The notes under the pieces are model-generated. The model had not been told where the DNA came from, did no database searches, and saw only the letters and a list, made by a program, of their open reading frames with translations. 22,918 nucleotides of DNA from a virus: the IMG/VR virus record IMGVR_UViG_3300020430_000099, positions 1-22,918 of that record; one strand, given 5' to 3'. Both the position numbers and the translations under genes were made by a program. Shown here piece by piece: positions 64 through 10,013 of the stretch; position 1 is the first letter of the stretch, and each line of letters begins with the position of its first letter.

Positions 64-124
64 AGTATCTCTTACGTTACGTTAAGTCTTTACGTAGTGA
101 AGACTTAACTAACTTAGAGATACT
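64..124 (+). repeat. covarying intergenic hairpin, copy 1
   Basis: An RNA-type hairpin in the leader of the gene at 138. The outer helix AGTATCTC (64-71) pairs with GAGATACT (117-124). The inner helix GTTAAGTCTT (81-90) pairs with AAGACTTAAC (100-109), extended by GTTA (76-79) with TAAC (110-113). The apical loop 91-99 is TACGTAGTG. The stem sequences differ from the other four copies but stay paired, while the loop and the TTA of the internal loop are kept. Seen directly in the sequence; function is inferred (processing or translation control). Confidence 0.85.
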
Positions 125-137
125 TAGGAAGATGAGA

Positions 138-398
138 ATGAAAAAGTTTAGCCAAAAAGATGTGGAACATTACATAAAAGATATGAACAAGGGTATTGAT
201 AACCATTTTGGAATTTGTGAGGAGTATCCTACTTATAATGATCAGGTTAATGGATTCTTAATTGATGAGTTATATGGGGACACTACAGCAAGAACATTAG
301 TTCTACAGGTATTAGAGTTTTTAAAGATTGATATGTCTCCTTCTCTAGCTTATGCAATGGGCTGGAGCTGGAAAATGGATCAACGGCAACGCAGTTAG
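138..398 (+). CDS. small early phage protein, unknown function
   Basis: This 86-residue protein begins MKKFSQKDVEHYIKD. I chose ATG 138 over the in-frame ATG at 132 because AGGAAG (126-131) touches the 132 codon but sits six bases before 138. The protein is mixed-charge with no signal peptide or membrane segment. Its C-terminal part (SPSLAYAMGWSWKMDQRQRS) is tryptophan-rich and basic. It lies just behind hairpin copy 1, and its stop codon (396-398) overlaps the first bases of hairpin copy 2, so a terminating ribosome would sit on that structure. I do not recognise the family. Position suggests an early host-takeover gene, which is inference only. Confidence 0.7.
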   Translation: MKKFSQKDVEHYIKDMNKGIDNHFGICEEYPTYNDQVNGFLIDELYGDTTARTLVLQVLEFLKIDMSPSLAYAMGWSWKMDQRQRS

Positions 399-455
399 TC
401 TTTCACGTTTTAAAGCCCTTTACGTAGTGAAGGGCATTTAAAACTTAGAAAGACT
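397..455 (+). repeat. covarying intergenic hairpin, copy 2
   Basis: The outer helix AGTCTTTC (397-404) pairs with GAAAGACT (448-455). The middle helix GTTTTAAA (407-414) pairs with TTTAAAAC (437-444). The inner helix GCCCTT (415-420) pairs with AAGGGC (430-435), with A436 bulged. The apical loop 421-429 is TACGTAGTG. The outer helix differs from copies 1 and 3 at paired positions on both sides. It precedes the 45-aa gene at 490. Confidence 0.88.
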
Positions 456-489
456 TAGAGAGTTTTCAACAAAACTAAAGGAGAGCAAC

Positions 490-627
490 ATGAGTTATCA
501 AGAAATAGAAAGTGAGATATTTACAGCAGGTTCTGTGGATCTATTCGATCCATCTATATCTATAGTTGATCACCCTGATCAAGCTGTAGGGATCGGTGAG
601 ATAGATATAGATTATTCTGAAGAATAG
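490..627 (+). CDS. 45-aa acidic small protein, unknown
   Basis: A short open frame (ATG 490, TAG 625-627) encoding 45 residues, MSYQEIESEIFTAGSVDLFD through GEIDIDYSEE. An AAGGAG Shine-Dalgarno element (478-483) lies at normal spacing, and hairpin copy 2 lies just upstream, so the unit hairpin, ribosome site, gene matches its neighbours. The product is strongly acidic (many D and E, no K or R), with no membrane segment. Small acidic phage early proteins often bind host enzymes or mimic DNA, but nothing in this sequence specifies a target. It is easy to miss because of its length. Family unknown. Confidence 0.65.
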   Translation: MSYQEIESEIFTAGSVDLFDPSISIVDHPDQAVGIGEIDIDYSEE

Positions 628-684
628 TTCTAAGTCCTGGGTAAGACTATAAAGTGCCTCTAATCAATAAATAAGGAGATTACC

Positions 685-1101
685 ATGCGTAAAATTGAAG
701 AAAAAATGAATAAAGCAATACGTTCTAGAGAAAACTTTAAGCTAGATAATACTGAAGTCTTTATAAGTGATACTGGTACAGCTCATGTATATCTACATGA
801 TAACTTGATAGCTTCATTTACTTCTAGTGATATGACCTTTCATAGTGATTGTGTTTCATGTGGAACTTGGAAAACTAGAACTACTAAAAGTAGATTAAAC
901 GCTATGCTATCTGAGTTTCATAATGAGCTAAGGATCTTTCAGAGAAAAGGAGAATGGTATATAGACACTCCTTATGGCTGGATAGCTTGGGACTTACATT
1001 CTATTAGAGTCTTTAATCATCCTACAGTAGGTAAGGTTATTTATTACTACGATACTCAAGCTGGTAGGGTATTTACTCAAACAATCGGCAATGCCGCTTA
1101 G
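685..1101 (+). CDS. conserved phage hypothetical with TTKSRLNAML motif
   Basis: This 138-residue protein begins MRKIEEKMNKAIRS. The pattern NTEVF, then VYLHDNLIASF, then TWKTRTTKSRLNAML, is one I associate with a widespread family of small phage and bacterial proteins of unknown function. I cannot confirm the family name without a search. It appears to be a soluble alpha/beta protein: a helical start, a strand-rich centre around residues 20-50, and a second strand-rich half ending VIYYYDTQAGRVFTQTIG. AAGGAG precedes the ATG. The stop codon (1099-1101) overlaps the outer stem of hairpin copy 3, the same arrangement as for the gene ending at 398. Confidence 0.8.
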   Translation: MRKIEEKMNKAIRSRENFKLDNTEVFISDTGTAHVYLHDNLIASFTSSDMTFHSDCVSCGTWKTRTTKSRLNAMLSEFHNELRIFQRKGEWYIDTPYGWIAWDLHSIRVFNHPTVGKVIYYYDTQAGRVFTQTIGNAA

Positions 1102-1156
1102 TATTACTTACGTTAAAGCCCTTTACGTAGTGAAGGGCATTTAACTTAGTAATACT
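1100..1156 (+). repeat. covarying intergenic hairpin, copy 3
   Basis: The outer helix AGTATTAC (1100-1107) pairs with GTAATACT (1149-1156). The middle helix GTTAAA (1112-1117) pairs with TTTAAC (1140-1145). The inner helix GCCCTT (1118-1123) pairs with AAGGGC (1133-1138). The loop 1124-1132 is TACGTAGTG. Relative to copy 2 the middle helix has a compensatory change (GTTTTAAA/TTTAAAAC to GTTAAA/TTTAAC), and the outer helix differs at several pairs. It lies just upstream of the AAGGAG site (1159-1164) of the gene at 1173. Confidence 0.88.
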
Positions 1157-1172
1157 TAAAGGAGAAAGTTTT

Positions 1173-1358
1173 ATGGCACATTTAGTTTCCCCAATAGATG
1201 AGGATACAACAGACGATAATTTAGAAGTCTTTTGTTCTGATTACTGCGCTCAAACAAGTTCAAACTACAATGGGTGGAATGGCTGTCATGAGGTTTCTCA
1301 TGATCAACCCTGCAAGAACTGTAATCAGATTATAAAAGGTATAGAAGAGGAAAAGTAA
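1173..1358 (+). CDS. small cysteine-rich protein, possible zinc binder
   Basis: This 61-residue protein has five cysteines and several histidines, including CSDYC near residues 21-25 and CKNC near residues 47-50, each a CxnC pair of the kind that holds zinc. The pairs flank an aromatic stretch (SSNYNGWNGCHEVSHD). AAGGAG lies eight bases before the ATG, and hairpin copy 3 lies immediately upstream. The family is not recognised. A small zinc-ribbon-like host-interaction protein is plausible but is inference from the cysteine spacing alone. Confidence 0.65.
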   Translation: MAHLVSPIDEDTTDDNLEVFCSDYCAQTSSNYNGWNGCHEVSHDQPCKNCNQIIKGIEEEK

Positions 1359-1386
1359 CAACCAACACTAAATTAAGGAGAAACAA

Positions 1387-1605
1387 ATGGATAATGTATT
1401 AGTATTAGAACACTTTGTATCTTTTGGAAATAATCATTTCTATCCTAAAAATGATGTAGCAGAAAATATATGTAAGTTTAAAAATCAAAAGTCTTTAACT
1501 ATGGATAATGTTTTAGAGTTAAAAAAACAAATGGGCTATGAAGTTCAAATGTATGCAAAGTCTTTTGAAGAAATTTGCAATGCTCCGCATCCTTATCGTC
1601 CATAA
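1387..1605 (+). CDS. small phage protein, unknown function
   Basis: This 72-residue protein begins MDNVLVLEHFVSFGNNHFYP. TTAAGGAG lies seven bases before the ATG. It follows the previous gene after only 28 bases and probably shares its mRNA. The second half, from the repeated MDNVLEL onward, looks helical. No signal peptide, membrane segment or known motif. The words MDNVLVLEHF and MDNVLELKKQ at the two ends hint at an internal duplication, but the similarity is short. Function unknown. Confidence 0.6.
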   Translation: MDNVLVLEHFVSFGNNHFYPKNDVAENICKFKNQKSLTMDNVLELKKQMGYEVQMYAKSFEEICNAPHPYRP

Positions 1606-1666
1606 TATCTCTGATATATCTCCATTATATATCCATAATATTAGCATAAGATGTGCTATAAAGATT

Positions 1667-1753
1667 AAGAGTTTCTATCTCCCAAGGGGTGAGGGTAGCA
1701 TCCTATAAGTATTATCTAATAGAAACTCTTTTTGTTCATGGATTAGATAATAC
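1667..1753 (+). ncRNA. H-type pseudoknot in the leader of the gene at 1790
   Basis: AAGAGTTTCTAT (1667-1678) is the perfect complement of ATAGAAACTCTT (1719-1730). GTATTATCTAAT (1709-1720), inside that loop, is the perfect complement of ATTAGATAATAC (1742-1753) beyond it. The two 12-bp helices share only two bases (1719-1720), so about 11 bp of each can form together and stack with no linker. The loops are about 31 and 11 nt. A small hairpin TAGCAT/GTGCTA (1642-1647/1653-1658) precedes it. The first stem is followed by five T, so a weak intrinsic terminator is an alternative reading. Not a family I recognise. Confidence 0.7.
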
Positions 1754-1789
1754 ATCTACCCACTTTCAACTAAATTAGGAGTCTTATAT

Positions 1790-2143
1790 ATGTCTGAAAA
1801 GAAATACTGGTTAAAAGAAGATGAGTTCGAGAAAGAAGATGGTAGTGCAATCATAGTTGAATATGACTATGAGATAGAGTCTTGCCAGGATTATCATGGT
1901 GATCAGTGGGCCGAAGCTCATCTAAATCCCCATAGATATTGGCTAACTAATTGGGACAGTGGAGCCAAAGATAGTGATCCTATAGATTGTAAAGGTAAGA
2001 CCTTTAAAGATCTAGGAGTAACAGATGAAGCTGTAAATGATATTGCAGAACAGATTGTAGCTGAAGGTAAAGCTATGGCTATGGAAGAGAAAGCTGACCT
2101 AGCTTATGAAGATCAACTAACTAATGAGGAGAAACCATTTTGA
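1790..2143 (+). CDS. conserved-looking acidic phage protein, unknown
   Basis: This 117-residue acidic protein begins MSEKKYWLKEDEFEKEDGS. The first 70 residues look strand-rich (IIVEYDYEIES, HRYWLTNWDSG), and the tail from GKTFKDLG onward is helical and acidic, ending TNEEKPF. A TTAGGAG site precedes the ATG, and the pseudoknot at 1667-1753 lies in its leader. It starts a three-gene unit with 4-base overlaps to the next two genes. The acidic C-terminus with final Phe recalls protein-docking tails of phage replication proteins, but that resemblance is weak. Function unknown. Confidence 0.7.
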   Translation: MSEKKYWLKEDEFEKEDGSAIIVEYDYEIESCQDYHGDQWAEAHLNPHRYWLTNWDSGAKDSDPIDCKGKTFKDLGVTDEAVNDIAEQIVAEGKAMAMEEKADLAYEDQLTNEEKPF

Positions 2144-2352
2144 ATGAAGTAATGATACAAATGTCTAAAGCTCTAGGTATGAGAGAGATCCAGAATAGAG
2201 TTCTAAAGTTTATAGAAGATAGATCGGATCATTTTACTAGATCGGAGATCATACTATTTCAAGATCTTAATAATATTATAGAAGATATGTGTGATACTCA
2301 GTTAAAGAAAGCAGAAAAGCTACAAAAGAAATCAAAAGGAGATATTAAATGA
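2140..2352 (+). CDS. small helical protein with TTG start, unknown
   Basis: This is a 70-residue protein. I favour the TTG at 2140 as start because GAGGAG (2126-2131) lies eight bases before it and TTGA overlaps the stop of the previous gene, a usual coupling arrangement. The in-frame ATG at 2152 has no good ribosome site. The sequence is almost wholly predicted helix, with amphipathic repeats (KALGMREIQNRVLKFIEDR and the lysine-rich LKKAEKLQKKSKGD tail). No motif identifies a family. Confidence 0.6.
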   Translation: MNEVMIQMSKALGMREIQNRVLKFIEDRSDHFTRSEIILFQDLNNIIEDMCDTQLKKAEKLQKKSKGDIK

Positions 2353-2606
2353 TTAAATTATTATTAATAATATTACCTCTAACATCCATAGCTCATCATA
2401 ATGATGAAGCTATGGACATAAATAATGGTAAAGTATATGAAATAAATAAAGGTGTATTAGAGAATGAAGTAGAATTATATGACTATGAAACTAATACGTA
2501 TCAATACTACGAAATTAATGATACTAAAGAATGGGATAGTTATAAAGAATTAGAACTCTATAATACTAATGACAACTCTTATAAACATATTGAGATTGAA
2601 AAGTAA
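2349..2606 (+). CDS. small exported protein with signal peptide
   Basis: This 85-residue protein begins MIKLLLIILPLTSIAHHND, with a lysine, a leucine/isoleucine core and a small-residue end (TSIA), which reads as a Sec signal peptide cut near residue 15. The mature part is acidic and tyrosine-rich. It holds two similar beta-like segments, ELYDYETNTYQYYEIND and ELYNTNDNSYKHIEIE. ATGA overlap with the previous gene indicates translational coupling. A phage early protein sent to the periplasm or outer membrane could act in superinfection exclusion, but that role is inferred from location only. Confidence 0.65.
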   Translation: MIKLLLIILPLTSIAHHNDEAMDINNGKVYEINKGVLENEVELYDYETNTYQYYEINDTKEWDSYKELELYNTNDNSYKHIEIEK

Positions 2607-2609
2607 TTA

Positions 2610-2683
2610 CAGCTATAGGGCGTTAGCTGATTTAAGTCCTAGTGTATATTTTATCACCTTAGTATATGACTAGGACAACGCCC
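2610..2683 (+). ncRNA. H-type pseudoknot with inserted hairpin
   Basis: Hairpin CAGCTA (2610-2615) / TAGCTG (2624-2629) has an eight-base loop. Its GGGCGT (2618-2623, plus T2624) is the perfect complement of AACGCCC (2677-2683). Between them sits a second hairpin, GTCCTAGT (2636-2643) / ACTAGGAC (2669-2676), ending exactly where the AACGCCC strand begins. The two-base first loop and zero-base junction are standard H-type geometry for a 6-7 bp second stem. It begins a few bases after the stop at 2606 and precedes hairpin copy 4. It could serve as a transcript-end stabiliser or a leader element. Confidence 0.72.
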
Positions 2684-2696
2684 ACCACAACTAATT

Positions 2697-2755
2697 AGTC
2701 TTTCAAGTTTTAAACCCTTTAACGTAGTGAAAGGGATTTAAAACTTAGAAAGACT
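2697..2755 (+). repeat. covarying intergenic hairpin, copy 4
   Basis: The outer helix AGTCTTTC (2697-2704) pairs with GAAAGACT (2748-2755). The middle helix AAGTTTTAAA (2705-2714) pairs with TTTAAAACTT (2737-2746). The inner helix CCCTTT (2715-2720) pairs with AAAGGG (2730-2735). The loop 2721-2729 is AACGTAGTG. The first inner pair is C-G rather than the G-C of copies 2 and 3, and the last is T-A, again with both sides changed. It lies in the leader of the DUF932-like gene. Confidence 0.88.
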
Positions 2756-2787
2756 TAGAGAGAACCGAAACCAACAGGAGATACAAT

Positions 2788-3810
2788 ATGACTAAAATTA
2801 TTTTAGATTTTCCAAGCGGTACTAAAACTATAGATATACCTAGAGATAAACCTACTGAAGTACCTACTGATCTACAAGATATGGGTACTCCTAGTAGTCC
2901 TTATGAACATCTAGGCTATGGTGCTGCAGACTTTGATATAGCTAAGTCTGATCTAACGTATGTAGATCGTGAGGGAAAAGTACATACCTCTAGTAAACAT
3001 ACTATATATAGAACTGATACTGGTGCAGAGCTTGGTGTTCATGGAAAGAACTATGCCAACATAGAAGAGCTTTCTTACAAAAGAATGATAGATAATCAGA
3101 GAAACATATTAGATTTCTGTGATCTAAATACTTTAGATATGAAAGAAGATATAGCCATTAGTGGTAATGGTAAGAGATTATTTCTTACTCATACACTACC
3201 TAATGAAGTTCTAAGAACACCCGATGGTGATACTGCAAATCTATCTTTTCTTACTGCAGCTTCACTTGATAGTACAGCACCTTTTACTATGACAGTAGGG
3301 GCAGAACAAAAGTTCTGTACCAATGGTCAACTATTTATAAATAATGCAGCTATGCTTTATAGAAACAAACACAATAAACAGTTGAGAATAGATGAAGGTG
3401 CTAGATTAATTCTAAATGCTACTGAGATATGCCAAAAGGAATTAGAAATGTGGCATACATGGCATAGCTTAGAAGTATCTAACATAGATGCTATGAAGAT
3501 ATTAGCTAAGGTAGCTAAACATAAAAGCCTGATGAGCGCCTTAAGTTCTAAAGGTATGGCAGCTTTATTTGAAGAAGAAGTAAAGTATGGCTCTGCTTTT
3601 GGTTACTTATTAAACAAGTGGAATAAAGACTATAGAGGTAGGTTAGGCCAAAATATGTGGGCTTTATATAACACTATTACAGATTGGATTACTCATGCTC
3701 CAGCCTCTAGAAAAGATTATGAATCTAATATATCTAAGATTCAATCTGATAGAAGAGAAGAAGCTAAGAAAGTAATTAAATCTGAGTTCCCTGTTGCTCT
3801 AGCAGCATAG
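2788..3810 (+). CDS. DUF932-like phage/plasmid protein
   Basis: This 340-residue protein carries the segment IYRTDTGAELGVHGKNY (about residues 73-89), the hallmark I know from the DUF932 family of phage and plasmid proteins, followed by a mixed alpha/beta core. The segment GAEQKFCTNGQLFINNAAM (about 172-190) fits the same family's mid-region (FVCTNG-like), and the C-terminal third is helical. DUF932 proteins are often abundant early products of phages and plasmids; their biochemical function is not established. AGGAG lies at normal spacing, and hairpin copy 4 and the 2610-2683 pseudoknot precede it. A 399-base gene-free structured region follows. Length is normal for the family. Confidence 0.8.
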   Translation: MTKIILDFPSGTKTIDIPRDKPTEVPTDLQDMGTPSSPYEHLGYGAADFDIAKSDLTYVDREGKVHTSSKHTIYRTDTGAELGVHGKNYANIEELSYKRMIDNQRNILDFCDLNTLDMKEDIAISGNGKRLFLTHTLPNEVLRTPDGDTANLSFLTAASLDSTAPFTMTVGAEQKFCTNGQLFINNAAMLYRNKHNKQLRIDEGARLILNATEICQKELEMWHTWHSLEVSNIDAMKILAKVAKHKSLMSALSSKGMAALFEEEVKYGSAFGYLLNKWNKDYRGRLGQNMWALYNTITDWITHAPASRKDYESNISKIQSDRREEAKKVIKSEFPVALAA

Positions 3811-3973
3811 GGATATGGTCAACTTATACATATTTAGTTTCAATATATTCTTGTTTGCTAGTTTTCCTGATATGGAAAGTTGTCTACAAACAAGAGAACT
3901 CTTGATGCTTAAAGAGTTCTATAGGCAAGACTTTGAACTGGTATGTATAAAAGTAGAACCAACTACAGTTTAT

Positions 3974-4090
3974 TGGGGTATGCCGTTTTAGTAATAGGAC
4001 GGCTCCACCAGATGCTTGAGATAGGCAATACTTATCACTCTGCCCCATTTATTTCTATTATGTGGAGCTGAAAACGCATAATAGAAATGA
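3974..4090 (+). ncRNA. pseudoknotted RNA domain
   Basis: TGGGGTA (3974-3980) pairs with TGCCCCA (4041-4047), one pair being G-U, and closes a branch holding GCCGT/ACGGC (3982-3986/3999-4003) and a short GATA/TATC stem (4020-4023/4033-4036). Next to it, ATTTCTATTATG (4051-4062) pairs with CATAATAGAAAT (4077-4088), 12 bp. The 14-base loop of this stem has TGGAGC (4063-4068), complementary to GCTCCA (4002-4007) inside the first branch. The result is a compact two-lobed fold locked by a loop contact, as in many riboswitches and ribozymes. GCTCCA overlaps the ACGGC strand by two bases, so fraying there is expected. Confidence 0.5.
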
Positions 4091-4100
4091 GCCAGGGCAT

Positions 4101-4179
4101 ATCTTTATTTGTATTATTCCTCCTTATAAAGATGTGTTGGTTGAGCCTTGACCCTAGCCAAGGTGGCTCAAAGCTAGGG
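4101..4179 (+). promoter_or_regulatory. anti-Shine-Dalgarno loop and competing hairpins
   Basis: An 8-bp stem (4101-4108/4126-4133) has a 17-base loop ending CCTCCTT (4119-4125); with the next base it matches the CCUCCUUA of the 16S rRNA 3' end. CTCCTT (4120-4125) can pair with AAGGAG (4197-4202) before the gene at 4210. Between them TTGAGCC (4141-4147)/GGCTCAA (4165-4171) and CCCTAGC (4152-4158)/GCTAGGG (4173-4179) interlock, but with only one base between their 3' strands they probably exclude each other. This arrangement suits a two-state translation switch. That role is inferred. Confidence 0.45.
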
Positions 4180-4209
4180 ATTTATTTATTAACTTAAAGG
4201 AGAACTATC

Positions 4210-4428
4210 ATGGCAGTAAAAAGAGCATTTATGGATCTAACTGAGTCTCAAGCAAAGGAGATAGAACTATATCAACAGCATTTAAAAGATCTTTATCCCC
4301 ACCAAGTAGTATCTAGGAGTTGGGCAATTAGAGAAGTTTTTGCAAGTGGTCTTAAAACAGTTCAATCAAGGAATGATTTTATTACATGGCGTAAAACTAA
4401 AGCTAACGTAGAATCTTCTAATGAATAA
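4210..4428 (+). CDS. possible ribbon-helix-helix-type small regulator
   Basis: This 72-residue protein begins MAVKRAFMDLTESQAKEIEL. A short basic strand (VKRAFMDL), a helix (ESQAKEIELYQQHLKDL), a turn, and a second helix VSRSWAIREVFASGLKTV resemble ribbon-helix-helix DNA-binding proteins, where the second helix usually reads SRSEAIREAI-x-GL. The linker is longer than normal, so this is a tentative call. AAGGAG lies seven bases before the ATG, behind the structured region 3811-4209. The next gene overlaps its last eight bases. If it binds nucleic acid, its own structured leader is a possible target (speculative). Confidence 0.5.
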   Translation: MAVKRAFMDLTESQAKEIELYQQHLKDLYPHQVVSRSWAIREVFASGLKTVQSRNDFITWRKTKANVESSNE

Positions 4429-4645
4429 AGATCACCTATGTTTAAACTGCAGAAAGCTCTGTGGAATAACTAAATATCACGATGACTATTGGGACTCAAA
4501 TGAAATCATAGGTCAGTATAGTCATGCTGATATCTGGTCAGATAATCTAGCAGGTTATAAGAGCTTATGCTGTAGAGATACTGCAGTTAAAGTAACTGCT
4601 GACCAACAAAAGCTGTTGATGAAAACAGGAAAGATGAGAGCTTAG
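4421..4645 (+). CDS. small cysteine-rich protein, unknown
   Basis: This 74-residue protein has CLNCRKLC near its start (C7, C10, C14) and a CC pair in LCCRDTA in the C-terminal third, a set that could bind one metal ion. The middle is rich in aromatic and acidic residues (YHDDYWDSNEIIGQYSHADIW). The ATG overlaps the end of the preceding gene by eight bases and has no strong ribosome site, so translation is probably coupled. The stop (4643-4645) overlaps the outer stem of hairpin copy 5. Family unknown. Confidence 0.6.
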   Translation: MNKDHLCLNCRKLCGITKYHDDYWDSNEIIGQYSHADIWSDNLAGYKSLCCRDTAVKVTADQQKLLMKTGKMRA

Positions 4646-4702
4646 TCTTTCAAGTTTTAAACCCTTTAACGTAGTGAAAGGGATTTAAAACTTAGAAAGA
4701 CT
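4644..4702 (+). repeat. covarying intergenic hairpin, copy 5
   Basis: The outer helix AGTCTTTC (4644-4651) pairs with GAAAGACT (4695-4702). The middle helix AAGTTTTAAA (4652-4661) pairs with TTTAAAACTT (4684-4693). The inner helix CCCTTT (4662-4667) pairs with AAAGGG (4677-4682). The loop 4668-4676 is AACGTAGTG. It is identical to copy 4 through the whole hairpin and so probably a recent duplicate, but its flanks differ. It precedes the AAGGAG of the gene at 4723. Confidence 0.88.
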
Positions 4703-4722
4703 TAACAGAAAAGGAGAACGCA

Positions 4723-4965
4723 ATGCAGATTCTTAATCTACGGATGCACGATGTAAACCATATAGACTTTAATACTATGCCTGATGAATCAGGAGAAAGT
4801 ACATACTTAAATATTACTATTCAATCTCCTGATGATTCGATTGATATATTGGTGTCAGCAGACAAGCATCTTAAGCTTACTGGTAAATATGTGCTGGAAT
4901 CATTCTTGGTAGAGAATGGAGTTGATATAAGTATTAAAGATGGGAGCGCACTTAATGGAAAGTAA
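4723..4965 (+). CDS. small acidic phage protein, unknown
   Basis: This 80-residue protein begins MQILNLRMHDVNHIDFNTMP. It looks like a small beta-rich fold: strands around YLNITIQS, SIDILVSAD, then a helix LKLTGKYVLESFLVENG. AAGGAG precedes the ATG, behind hairpin copy 5. Its last 11 bases overlap the next gene, whose ribosome site is inside this coding region. No recognised motif. Confidence 0.65.
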   Translation: MQILNLRMHDVNHIDFNTMPDESGESTYLNITIQSPDDSIDILVSADKHLKLTGKYVLESFLVENGVDISIKDGSALNGK

Positions 4966-5263
4966 AATCATAACCAATACATTTGAAGATATAGTATCCA
5001 AACGAGACTTCTTTCTAACACCTAAAAGATCAGATAAGTTTAAAGCTTTTATGTATGTAGATGGCTGGAGATATTGTTCTATAACAGTAGGTAGTAAAAG
5101 AGGAAAGATTAAACCCTTACATGGTAACTATACTACTAAGACTATGACTATTAATAAGCTTAAAGAAGAATTGTATTCGACTTATGAAAGAGCTGTCAAC
5201 TTTGTTGTAGGTAGATTAGATCGTAAACCCCGAAACTGGAGGAGACTTTATGGATTAAGATAA
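4955..5263 (+). CDS. small basic phage protein, unknown
   Basis: The 102-residue form begins MESKIITNTFEDIVSKRD. I prefer ATG 4955 to the in-frame ATG at 4940 because GGGAG (4942-4946) sits eight bases before 4955 and overlaps the 4940 codon. The protein is basic (TPKRSDKFKAF, GSKRGKIKP, GRLDRKPRNWRRLYGLR), consistent with nucleic-acid binding, with a central strand pair (FMYVDGWRYCSITVGSKRG) and a C-terminal helix. It precedes the SSB gene across a gap with a promoter-like sequence. Family unknown. Confidence 0.65.
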   Translation: MESKIITNTFEDIVSKRDFFLTPKRSDKFKAFMYVDGWRYCSITVGSKRGKIKPLHGNYTTKTMTINKLKEELYSTYERAVNFVVGRLDRKPRNWRRLYGLR

Positions 5264-5325: not shown

Positions 5326-5781
5326 ATGGCTACTGTTACAGGTATAGCCTACTGGGCTTCAATTCGCCACCCTAATACTCGATTCGATCCTAAGTTCTGT
5401 TGTGACTTAGTAGTTGATGAAGAGGATGCTAAAGACTTTAGATCTAGAGGATTTGATGTTAAAGAGAAAGAGCATGGCCCTACTCTTATATTCAAGCGTA
5501 ACCAATTCAATAAGAAAACTGGACAACCAAACTCTATTCCTAAGCTGAAAGATAAGTATGGTAAAGATGTAGATGTTGAAGTTGGTAATGGTTCTAAGGT
5601 TAGAATCCAATACCAAGAATGGAATTCTAATTGGAATGGTCAAAACTTTCAGGGATTAGATCTTCAAGGTCTACAAATACTTGAGCTAGTAGAAGTTGAT
5701 AGAGTACCAGATGGTGAAGAGCTAGAAGCTTTGGTAGAACCTTCAGAGGGTGATGATGATGAGTTAGGAGCTGTAGTATGA
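5326..5781 (+). CDS. single-stranded DNA-binding protein, T7 gp2.5 type
   Basis: This 151-residue protein has the layout of T7-like SSBs: an N-terminal strand (ATVTGIAYWASIRHP), a central DLVVDEEDAKDFRSRGFDVKE block, then IPKLKDKYGKDVDVEVGNGSKVRIQYQEW, where GNGSKVRI is a strong family marker, and a short acidic tail (EPSEGDDDELGAVV). It coats ssDNA during replication and should contact the polymerase and primase-helicase encoded downstream. In T7 the acidic tail ends in an aromatic residue; here it ends AVV. It follows a promoter candidate and overlaps the next gene by ATGA. Confidence 0.85.
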   Translation: MATVTGIAYWASIRHPNTRFDPKFCCDLVVDEEDAKDFRSRGFDVKEKEHGPTLIFKRNQFNKKTGQPNSIPKLKDKYGKDVDVEVGNGSKVRIQYQEWNSNWNGQNFQGLDLQGLQILELVEVDRVPDGEELEALVEPSEGDDDELGAVV

Positions 5782-6123: not shown

Positions 6124-7833
6124 ATGGGATTTGTTTCAAGAAGGATGCCCTGTTGGGATGTAGGATGCGGTAGCTCAGATGGAGTTGCTGTTAATGAAGA
6201 TGGATCAGCTAAATGTTTTTCAGGTAATCATGCTACACATGGAACTACTAACTCTTATGTTAGGAACTATGAAGAAGCTATGGGTGGCGTGGCTCCTACT
6301 ATGAGAACAACACCAAGTTCTATTCCCAAAAGAAGTAACTACAGTAATGATTCCGATATACGTAATGCAGAATATTCTAGTCTTACAGATCGCAGTATTA
6401 GTTTAGAGACAGCTAAGTTATATGGAGTCAAAGTAACTAAAGATGCTGCAGGTTCTTTATGCAAACACTTCTATCCTTACTATCGTGGTAGTGAGGTAGT
6501 AGGTCATAAGATAAGAAAGATAAATGAAAAGCAGTTTAGCTGGAGTGGTGATGCTAAAGAACCACAACTATTCGGCCAGCATCTAGTTCAGAAAGGTAGT
6601 AAAGCATTGACCATTACAGAAGGTGAATGTGATGCCATGGCAGCTTATGAGCTGATGGGTAGAAGGTTTCCAGCAGTATCCTTACCCAATGGTATCGGAG
6701 CTGCTGAGAGAGATATACGTAACAATATAGAGTTTGTTGAGAGTTTTGAATCTATCTATCTATCATTTGATAGTGACCAGCAGGGCAAAGATAAAGCAAT
6801 CAAAGTAGCTAAGTTACTTACTCCAGGCAAAGTAAAGATACTTACTTATCCAGAAGGATATAAAGATGCTAACGATATGCTCAGGGCAGGGCAGCATAAG
6901 CAATATATTGATAACTGGTGGAACGCTATTACTTATACACCAGCAGGTGTTCTGAGTTTATCTGATAACTTTGATCAGCTCTTTCAAAGAGAGAAGAAAG
7001 AATCAGTCCCTTATCCTTGGCATGGTCTTAATCAAAAGCTATTAGGTCTTAGGCAGGGTGAGCTGGTTACGTTTACTGGTGGTACTGGACTAGGTAAGAC
7101 TTCCATAATTAGAGAACTAGAGCATTGGTTACTCAAAGAGACTAAAGATACTATCGGGATCATTGCACTAGAGGAAGATTGGACTAGGACTGCAGATGGC
7201 ATTATATCTATCGAGGCTAACAAACAACTCTATATCGACTCTATACGTGAAGACTTTGGGCAAGAAGCTTATGAAGAGGTAGCTCACAATATTATGGGTG
7301 GTGACAATAAAGACAGAGTTCTAGTTCACTCGCACTTTGGATCTAGTGATTTCGATGACATTCTATCCAAGATTAAATACATGGTAGTAGGTAGAGGATG
7401 TAAGTGGATTATCTTAGATCACTTACAGATGATAGTGTCTGCTTCAGAGCAAGGTAATGAGAGAGCTTTGATAGATAAGATTATGACTGACCTTAGAAAG
7501 CTAGTTGAAGAAACTAAGGTAGGTATGCTTTTGGTATCACACCTTAGAAGGCTAGAAGGTAATAAGGGGCATGAGAATGGTGCTGCAGTATCTCTTAGCC
7601 ACCTTAGAGGGTCTGGTGGTATAGCTCAGATATCAGATTGTGTTATCGCTATTGAAAGAGATCAACAATCAGAGGATGAATTAGAGGCCAGGACTACTCA
7701 CCTTAGAATACTTAAGTCTCGTTATACTGGTAATGTTGGTATGGCAGCTCACCTTAGATATGACGATAAGACAGGTAGACTACATGAGACAGAGTATGAG
7801 GAAGATGAGCTAACAGATGACATACCATTTTAA
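6124..7833 (+). CDS. DNA primase-helicase, T7 gp4-like
   Basis: This 569-residue bifunctional replication protein has an N-terminal zinc-binding primase domain (C10, C15, C31, H36). The TOPRIM domain has TEGECDA with E167 and FDSDQQG with D216 and D218. The RecA/DnaB-type helicase has Walker A GGTGLGKTS (319-327), E350 in ALEED, Walker B WIILDHLQM (428-436), the VSHL motif (471-474) and SLSHLRGSGGIAQISD (490-505). Length equals T7 gp4 (566). It unwinds DNA ahead of the polymerase and makes primers. The C-terminus EEDELTDDIPF is acidic and ends in Phe like T7 gp4, but its last five residues are those of bacterial SSB tails. AAAGGAG precedes the ATG, behind a pseudoknot leader. Confidence 0.93.
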   Translation: MGFVSRRMPCWDVGCGSSDGVAVNEDGSAKCFSGNHATHGTTNSYVRNYEEAMGGVAPTMRTTPSSIPKRSNYSNDSDIRNAEYSSLTDRSISLETAKLYGVKVTKDAAGSLCKHFYPYYRGSEVVGHKIRKINEKQFSWSGDAKEPQLFGQHLVQKGSKALTITEGECDAMAAYELMGRRFPAVSLPNGIGAAERDIRNNIEFVESFESIYLSFDSDQQGKDKAIKVAKLLTPGKVKILTYPEGYKDANDMLRAGQHKQYIDNWWNAITYTPAGVLSLSDNFDQLFQREKKESVPYPWHGLNQKLLGLRQGELVTFTGGTGLGKTSIIRELEHWLLKETKDTIGIIALEEDWTRTADGIISIEANKQLYIDSIREDFGQEAYEEVAHNIMGGDNKDRVLVHSHFGSSDFDDILSKIKYMVVGRGCKWIILDHLQMIVSASEQGNERALIDKIMTDLRKLVEETKVGMLLVSHLRRLEGNKGHENGAAVSLSHLRGSGGIAQISDCVIAIERDQQSEDELEARTTHLRILKSRYTGNVGMAAHLRYDDKTGRLHETEYEEDELTDDIPF

Positions 7834-8249: not shown

Positions 8250-8258
8250 GTGGAGGCT

Positions 8259-10013
8259 ATGAGTAGTTATGTTTTTGACATTGAGACTGATGATATAGAT
8301 GCCAATAAGATTTGGTGTCTATCAATGATAGATACACATACTGGTGTTCAAACATCTTTTGATCCTTCTCAAGTTAAAGAAGGGCTAGAGATATTATCTA
8401 AAGCTGACAAGCTGATAGGGCATAACATCATTGGATTTGATATCCCTGTTATTAAAAAACTAACTGGTATTAATCTAAGTAATAAAAAAATAATAGATAC
8501 ATTGGTTCTATCTCGACTCTTTAATCCAGTTAGAGAAGGGGGTCATGGTTTAGAAAGATGGGGTCAGACCTTGAAATCTAACAAGATAGACTTTCATAAC
8601 TACTCTAGATATTCACTTGATATGCTGAAGTATTGTGAACAAGATGTTGCTTTAAATTTTAAAGTCTTCAAAAGACTTAGAAAAGAAGCTTCAGGGTTTA
8701 CTAAGCGCAGCATCTATCTAGAACATGAGACTGCTAAGATAGTAACTACTCAAAGAGAATATGGCTTCTTGTTTGATTTAGAAGCTGGTATGAAGCTGGT
8801 AGCTAAACTTAACAGCAGAAAGTTTGAGATAGATAAAGAGATAAAAGAATCTTTCTTACCTAAAAAGAATCATATCAAGATACTTCCTAGATATAACAAA
8901 GATGGCAAGCTATTAAAGACAGGTAGTGTTCAGGCCAAAGGAGAAATTATATCTGGAGTAAGATTAACTCAAAAAGAGTTTACTGAATTACAGACTAATA
9001 AATGTACTACAAGAGTAACTGAAACTGAATTCAATCCTAACTCTAGAAAACAAATAGGAGAGTACCTACAAGAGCTAGGCTGGAAGCCAAAAGAATTTAC
9101 TCCTAAAGGCCAGCCCAAGGTAGATGAAAAGATATTAAGCAGTATAAAAAATATCTCTCAAGCTCAATTATTATCTGAGTTCTTAATGCTGCAAAAGAGA
9201 ATAGCTCAAGTAGATTCTTGGCTAGATGATATGGAAAATGATAATCGAGTAAGAGGATTTGTAAATCATAACGGAACTATTACTGGTCGTATGACTCATA
9301 GAAATCCTAATATGGCTCAAATACCTAGCGTTTCCTCTGAGTATGGTGAGGAGTGTAGAGCCTGTTGGATAGTAAAGCCAGGGTATAAGCTAGTAGGAAT
9401 AGATGCCTCTGGGCTTGAACTAAGAATGTTAGCTCACTATATGGGTGATAAGGAGTATATTGATGAAGTCATTAATGGAGACATCCACTCTACTAACCAA
9501 GAACTTGCTGGACTTAAATCAAGAGATCAGGCAAAAACTTTCATCTATGCACTTTTGTACGGAGCAGGAGATGAAAAACTTGGAACTGTGGTGGGAGGAT
9601 CTAAACGAGATGGAAAAGAACTTAGAGAATCATTTATCACTAATCTCCCATCATTCAAAAATCTTAAAGGAAAGGTTGCAAGAGAAGCTAAAAAAGGTTT
9701 CATAAAAGGATTAGATGGACGTAAGCTTCTTATAAGAAGTGAACATTCTGCTTTAAATACTTTACTTCAGAGTGCTGGCTCTATTGTTATGAAACATGCT
9801 TTAGTGGTATTCAATAGTGCTTTAGGTCATAAAGATGCCCACTTTGTAGCTAACGTACATGATGAATGGCAGCTCGAAGTTAAAGAAGATATAGCCCCTA
9901 TGGTAGGTAGCTTAGGAATAAAGTCTATTATCTTAGCAGGAGAGGATTTAGAACTTAACTGTCCTTTAGATGGAGAGTATAAGATAGGAAATAACTGGAG
10001 TGAGACTCACTAA
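8259..10013 (+). CDS. DNA polymerase, family A (T7 gp5 type) with 3'-5' exonuclease
   Basis: A 584-residue replicative polymerase. Start: ATG 8259 fits the purine-rich AGGTGGAGG (8248-8256); the in-frame GTG at 8250 has no ribosome site. Proofreading domain: DIET (D7, E9), HNIIGFD (D61), YCEQD (D129). Polymerase domain: GRMTHRNPNMAQIP (343-356), motif A GIDASGLELRM (D382), motif B RDQAKTFIYALLYGAG (R422, K426, Y430), motif C NVHDE (H534, D535). All catalytic residues are present. The motif B residue equal to E. coli F762 is tyrosine, as in T7. It is shorter than T7 gp5 (704 aa). No DnaJ-like zinc insert is present. The next gene overlaps by one base (TAATG). Confidence 0.95.
   Translation: MSSYVFDIETDDIDANKIWCLSMIDTHTGVQTSFDPSQVKEGLEILSKADKLIGHNIIGFDIPVIKKLTGINLSNKKIIDTLVLSRLFNPVREGGHGLERWGQTLKSNKIDFHNYSRYSLDMLKYCEQDVALNFKVFKRLRKEASGFTKRSIYLEHETAKIVTTQREYGFLFDLEAGMKLVAKLNSRKFEIDKEIKESFLPKKNHIKILPRYNKDGKLLKTGSVQAKGEIISGVRLTQKEFTELQTNKCTTRVTETEFNPNSRKQIGEYLQELGWKPKEFTPKGQPKVDEKILSSIKNISQAQLLSEFLMLQKRIAQVDSWLDDMENDNRVRGFVNHNGTITGRMTHRNPNMAQIPSVSSEYGEECRACWIVKPGYKLVGIDASGLELRMLAHYMGDKEYIDEVINGDIHSTNQELAGLKSRDQAKTFIYALLYGAGDEKLGTVVGGSKRDGKELRESFITNLPSFKNLKGKVAREAKKGFIKGLDGRKLLIRSEHSALNTLLQSAGSIVMKHALVVFNSALGHKDAHFVANVHDEWQLEVKEDIAPMVGSLGIKSIILAGEDLELNCPLDGEYKIGNNWSETH

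Follow-up and report, generated by a model that had tools for sequence, protein, structure and literature searches.

The window analysed here, 22,918 bases long, comprises an IMG/VR virus record in full. On its + strand, an early operon of small ORFs (132..5263, +) lies upstream of the replication genes. It is followed by genes for an SSB/gp2.5-like protein (5326-5781, +), a primase-helicase (6124-7833, +) and PolA (8250-10013, +), then by a Cas4-type exonuclease and an endonuclease. The early ORF at 685-1101 (138 aa) has a Pfam match at 8e-27 to PF23790 (Kyanoviridae Gp96), whose name comes from a cyanophage protein. The operon also encodes a conserved 107-aa protein (4940-5263).

The early operon bears five leader hairpins, all on the + strand. 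Copy 1 (64..124) precedes an 88-aa ORF (132-398), copy 2 (397..455) a 45-aa ORF (490-627), copy 3 (1100..1156) the ORF 1173-1358, copy 4 (2697..2755) the DUF932 gene (2788-3810) and copy 5 (4644..4702) the ORF 4723-4965. As copies 4 and 5 are identical, the five represent four independent sequences. All of them were located where a preliminary description of this DNA had placed them, and what it said of their setting is borne out as well: three copies begin within a stop codon, namely copy 2 (397 in TAG 396-398, ORF 132-398), copy 3 (1100 in TAG 1099-1101, ORF 685-1101) and copy 5 (4644 in TAG 4643-4645, ORF 4421-4645), and each hairpin stands just before a ribosome site, with a Shine-Dalgarno sequence and ATG 7-34 nt past its end.

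Copy 1 is built from a 9-bp outer stem, AGTATCTCT, an internal loop, and stems of 4 and 10 bp split by one bulged C; its tip stacks U.G, A-U and C-G around a GUA loop. Fold prediction gives the same cap wherever the preceding base is T, with U.G, A-U and C-G closing a GUA triloop, and the true terminal loop is then 3 nt long. An asymmetric internal loop separates upper and lower stem in copies 1-3; copies 4-5, like most relatives, show no more than a 1-nt bulge or 1x1 mismatch there. In 5/5 window copies the outer 8 bp match perfectly, and the paired changes first noticed between copies are real: the outer stems AGTATCTC, AGTCTTTC and AGTATTAC are all complemented. The motif ACGTAGTG occurs five times in the window, always on the + strand, against 0.16 expected from shuffles, and the fold z-scores of the window copies range from -5.1 to -6.7, with no shuffle equally good. 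Plain long perfect stems are not rare in such an AT-rich window (two arms of at least 8 in the first 5.4 kb, versus 0-4 in random sequence); chance fails, rather, to account for a composite hairpin that recurs with an unchanged tip.

Relatives were traced via the DUF932 protein (2788-3810) and via DNA patterns. The element occurs in one group of uncultured tailed phages, with at most eight copies per genome among the carriers inspected; a stem-specific pattern alone gave matches in 29 contigs, part of them inspected individually. The low-GC carriers are one phage group, because terminase, primase-helicase, PolA or early genes are common to all of them. Two GC-rich records (G013 and G015) have one hairpin each, and only G015 showed shared genes such as PolA in this comparison. 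All copies in the carriers inspected are on the coding strand, and none lies beyond the first few kb of the early operon, whose start is opposite the terminase genes; matches to ACGTAGTG outside the early operon lie inside genes and form no hairpin. Relatives without the element exist. In most relatives the leader of the DUF932 gene lacks both the gap and the hairpin, and a diverged copy was found near this gene in the relative G002 (L208:16362-16441). As the 72-kb record of G002 (IMGVR_UViG_3300029448_000015) contains two genes each for DNA polymerase and primase-helicase, and structural-type genes are repeated in it, the assembly may have fused two related phages.

The element has no described counterpart in the sources searched. 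The preliminary description knew of no named RNA family with this loop, in agreement with an Rfam scan of the window, where no covariance model matched above its gathering score and a relaxed threshold gave chance-level matches only. Neither three hairpin queries nor the early region gave a real blastn match in GenBank phages. Literature searches on the loop sequence led only to unrelated microRNA, aptamer and similar matches, and those on phage hairpins found no paper describing the element.

For its anatomy, 52 full-helix copies were parsed and tip bases were counted over 53. The helix mostly comprises 17-27 Watson-Crick pairs, usually interrupted by a bulge, mismatch or small internal loop. 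In the parsed copies the tip reads N-A-C-(2-4 nt)-G-U-G, where N is T in 38 copies, A in 12, C in 2 and G in 1 (53 in all). Its centre is GTA in 37 cases, GTT in four, AAA in three, GGTA and TT in two each, and ATA, GAAA, GAA, GATA and GCTA once each. The loop, at first taken to be fixed, is thus constant only in the lineage of the window: in relatives the centre varies freely while A-C/G-U-G is kept, and the supposedly fixed sequence is simply the commonest tip. When the carriers were scanned without regard to the loop, 44 distinct long hairpins turned up ahead of ribosome sites; the AC...GTG core is present in 29 of them. The element, always on the mRNA strand, fills the gap from the stop of one small gene to the Shine-Dalgarno sequence of the next, and its end is 5-65 nt from the first ATG (median about 14; 50 copies with a measurable ATG).

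Downstream of the stem comes ACTTAG.. or the Shine-Dalgarno sequence. No U run follows, which makes intrinsic terminators or attenuators between early genes very improbable; the hairpins are strong and intergenic and one copy passes a loose terminator scan, but the scan gave only three terminator-like sites where chance would give 1.9. Promoters of the phage N4 kind, hairpins that serve a virion RNA polymerase, would suit the early-gene location and the GNA-type tip closed by C-G, but are extremely improbable here. They have a 5-7 bp stem and a 3-nt loop on the template strand; the present stems measure 17-27 bp, and their GNA lies on the non-template strand for the downstream gene. The N4 virion RNA polymerase has about 3500 aa, compared with at most 1852 aa for the largest ORF here, and carriers have no T7-type RNA polymerase (that of T7 itself was detected). 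A sigma-70 promoter scan of the early region gave fewer sites than its shuffles.

Covariation is strong and holds in distant relatives. In 22 diverse copies, 8 of the 11 inner pairs are changed on both sides and 97.9% of cells are paired. In the same 22 copies, cells with both sides changed number 52, versus 14 in shuffles, and the covariation score reaches 0.615, versus 0.194 for shuffled copies and at most 0.211 for slid pairings. The inner pairs are inflated in this set, since part of it came from searches with patterns that prescribe 3-4 stem pairs, and an arm length of at least 5-8 pairs was demanded of candidates. A covariance model, which the preliminary description had proposed together with a covariation check, recovered 53 copies at E<5e-5. 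Many of these have other loops and lie outside its training set, and they show the same covariation behaviour. Four versions of the hairpin are kept in the leaders of an orthologous protein whose identity is 61-97%, and their stem changes are compensated.

The paired changes had been read from the outset as selection on RNA structure and not on a DNA site. The second half of this claim stands, in that a simple double-stranded protein site is excluded by the free change of the stem sequence; the first was too strong as proof. No wobble was counted among the roughly 987 helix pairs that lie up to about 20 nt from the tip, and 2-3 copies allow an alternative alignment with one wobble, for at most about three in total. 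One G-U pair was seen at the tip of a sister hairpin in L059/L120. A strand test comparing G-U with A-C mispairs found both kinds almost absent. Since wobble pairs are practically absent, covariation alone is compatible with correction of the arms at the DNA level. Two accounts offer themselves: wobble pairs are not tolerated, or one arm is copied from the other at that level.

On the latter account, intrastrand template switching, or selection for a one-strand DNA hairpin or cruciform, would keep the arms complementary and leave the RNA structure as a by-product. It would fit the missing wobble, the two strands of the window hairpins folding about equally well, the many transversional pair changes and the C-GTA-G tip, which is of the type forming very stable DNA mini-hairpins. 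It sits badly with copies that are always on the coding strand, abut ribosome sites and keep to early genes, with tips changed to non-GNA loops such as AAA, GTT and TT, and with freely changing stems, for which a double-stranded protein site offers no explanation. We consider such a DNA-level origin unlikely. That the element is strand-specific, keeps a fixed position ahead of ribosome sites and is restricted to early genes speaks for RNA, though not decisively. Since its arms vary in concert and a short tip motif is retained, it has the look of a gene-control signal not yet described, one that probably acts in mRNA.

Several near-identical copies per genome, the identity of copies 4 and 5, the TTA on either side of the window copies and the relatives with no copy at the corresponding site could also suggest a small mobile or amplified palindromic repeat of REP or MITE type, surviving in the sole non-coding gaps. 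We regard this as quite improbable. The hairpin is kept at an orthologous leader with compensated changes, and the covariance-model search did not find it in the gaps among late genes of carriers. Ten carrier records, possibly incomplete, yielded no Y1/REP transposase (positive controls were detected), and 85k host genomes gave just two stem-loop pattern matches, neither a long hairpin. N4-type promoters, terminators and REP-like elements each fail on features tested.

The reading that we favour, with somewhat less than even confidence, is that of a cis-acting leader or processing hairpin of the mRNA that would insulate early cistrons, working like the RNase III sites of T7. It builds on predicted structure, covariation, strand, position and early-gene restriction; it supposes that the hairpins are expressed as RNA. 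In the early polycistronic mRNA, the hairpin would stand between one small cistron and the next ribosome site, as a helix of about 17-27 bp with, in most copies, a small bulge, mismatch or internal loop, capped by U.G/A-U/C-G and a loop of 2-4 nt. A host double-strand-specific RNase of the RNase III type would cut in or near the helix; alternatively, the helix may block exonucleases and upstream structure. Either way, each early gene would gain a stable, well-defined end and have its ribosome site kept clear. The carriers have no detectable RNase III of their own (positive controls were detected) and, as stated above, no T7-type RNA polymerase, so host enzymes would act.

The parallel with T7, already drawn in the preliminary description, holds in position and size. 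Like R0.3, R0.5, R1 and R1.3, the element is a hairpin of about 50-60 nt on the mRNA strand, in the gap before the Shine-Dalgarno sequence of an early gene; its helix, too, is split in two by a bulge or internal loop, the likeness in this last point being partial. Unlike these sites, it has its own sequence and tip, and it contains no G-U pairs, versus 18/95 in the four T7 RNase III leaders; many copies outside the window have just a 1-nt bulge or mismatch, and cleavage is predicted by analogy. The absence of wobble would be unusual for a structure kept only as RNA. Ordinary RNase III cutting does not explain the conserved tip, for which it has no obvious need; recognition of A-C/G-U-G would have a precedent in yeast Rnt1p, an RNase that reads a tetraloop.

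The tip is what gives weight to the main rival of the processing-hairpin reading, in which the element is a translational operator: an RNA-binding protein of phage or host would recognise the A-C/G-U-G tip on its helix and switch the translation of several early genes together. Conserved tip nucleotides with varying stems and loop centre would be expected of such a regulon, the hairpin sits just upstream of the Shine-Dalgarno sequence, and in some relatives this sequence lies in a second small hairpin whose arms change together. The operators of T4/RB69 gp43 and MS2 coat protein likewise combine a freely varying stem with a conserved tip near the ribosome site. Those operators overlap that site and their protein is known; the present helix is longer and lies upstream of the Shine-Dalgarno sequence, usually leaving it uncovered, and its partner protein is hypothetical. 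Post-transcriptional control in T4 is the subject of a review (PMC3014915). No RNA-binding protein can be named: the early proteins of the window operon have no informative Pfam or PHROG match, and none was demonstrated to be specific to carriers, the compared loci of non-carriers being short. We judge the operator possible but rather unlikely.

By position, the nearest described repeats are the SAS and ESAS, repeated cis elements directly upstream of the start codons of non-structural genes in cluster K mycobacteriophages (PMC3203893) and cluster EF Microbacterium phages (PMC7302621). The cluster K SAS has an inverted repeat just upstream (PMC3203893), and the function of SAS and ESAS is given as unknown (PMC3203893, PMC7302621). 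The ESAS keeps its 17-bp arms and varies the spacer, whereas the present element keeps the tip and varies the arms. In the window, the 13-bp SAS GGGATAGGAGCCC has only chance-level matches with three mismatches, none at the hairpins, and around the ESAS core of AnnaSerena no consistent hairpin was seen. Given the likeness in position to SAS/ESAS and the SAS-like Shine-Dalgarno hairpins of relatives, we file the element among the start-associated or intercistronic hairpins of phage early genes.

These Shine-Dalgarno hairpins, small and with co-varying arms, occur in the leaders of L081 (about 3717, reverse strand), L177, L204 and L052, with AAATC-GGA-GATTT and TATATC-GGA-GATATA versus TAAAATC-GGA-GATTTTA; the leaders of L047, L049 and L224 have AGCC-GUAGGA-GGC, AGCU-GUGG-AGGCU and AAAACU-GCAGG-AGUUUU. 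In kind they are like the mycobacteriophage SAS. Related phages also bear a sister leader hairpin, AACTCTC-AAGTTTCTTGA-GAGAGTT, seen in ten viral contig stretches (among them L007:1237-1261, L009, L010, L011, L016, L017 and L033, + strand). It mostly comes as a pair of copies spaced 360-620 bp apart within the early region, and here too a stem change is compensated (ATTA/TAAT versus ACTA/TAGT). Very long, near-perfect hairpins precede an ORF of 160-174 aa at L009:~3601, L011:~2405 and L017:~2418; their tips are AAC-ATT-GTG, AAC-TTT-GTG and CAC-TT-GTG, and they may belong, as remoter members, to the class of the main element.

More broadly, the leader hairpins of the early genes might form a regulon-like class of phage regulatory RNA not described before, with at least one sister class (AACTCTC-AAGTTTCTTGA-GAGAGTT), whose A-C/G-U-G tip would be read by a dedicated RNA-binding protein of phage or host or by a tip-sensing RNase III; we put this forward tentatively, as a possibility short of likely. 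Cis repeats at the starts of phage early genes, such as the T7 RNase III sites and SAS/ESAS, have come to light independently. Here, many copies, strong covariation and a short tip give defined nucleotides to mutate and a covariance model for searching, and the near-zero wobble makes the element a useful case for weighing covariation from RNA selection against palindrome correction at the DNA level.
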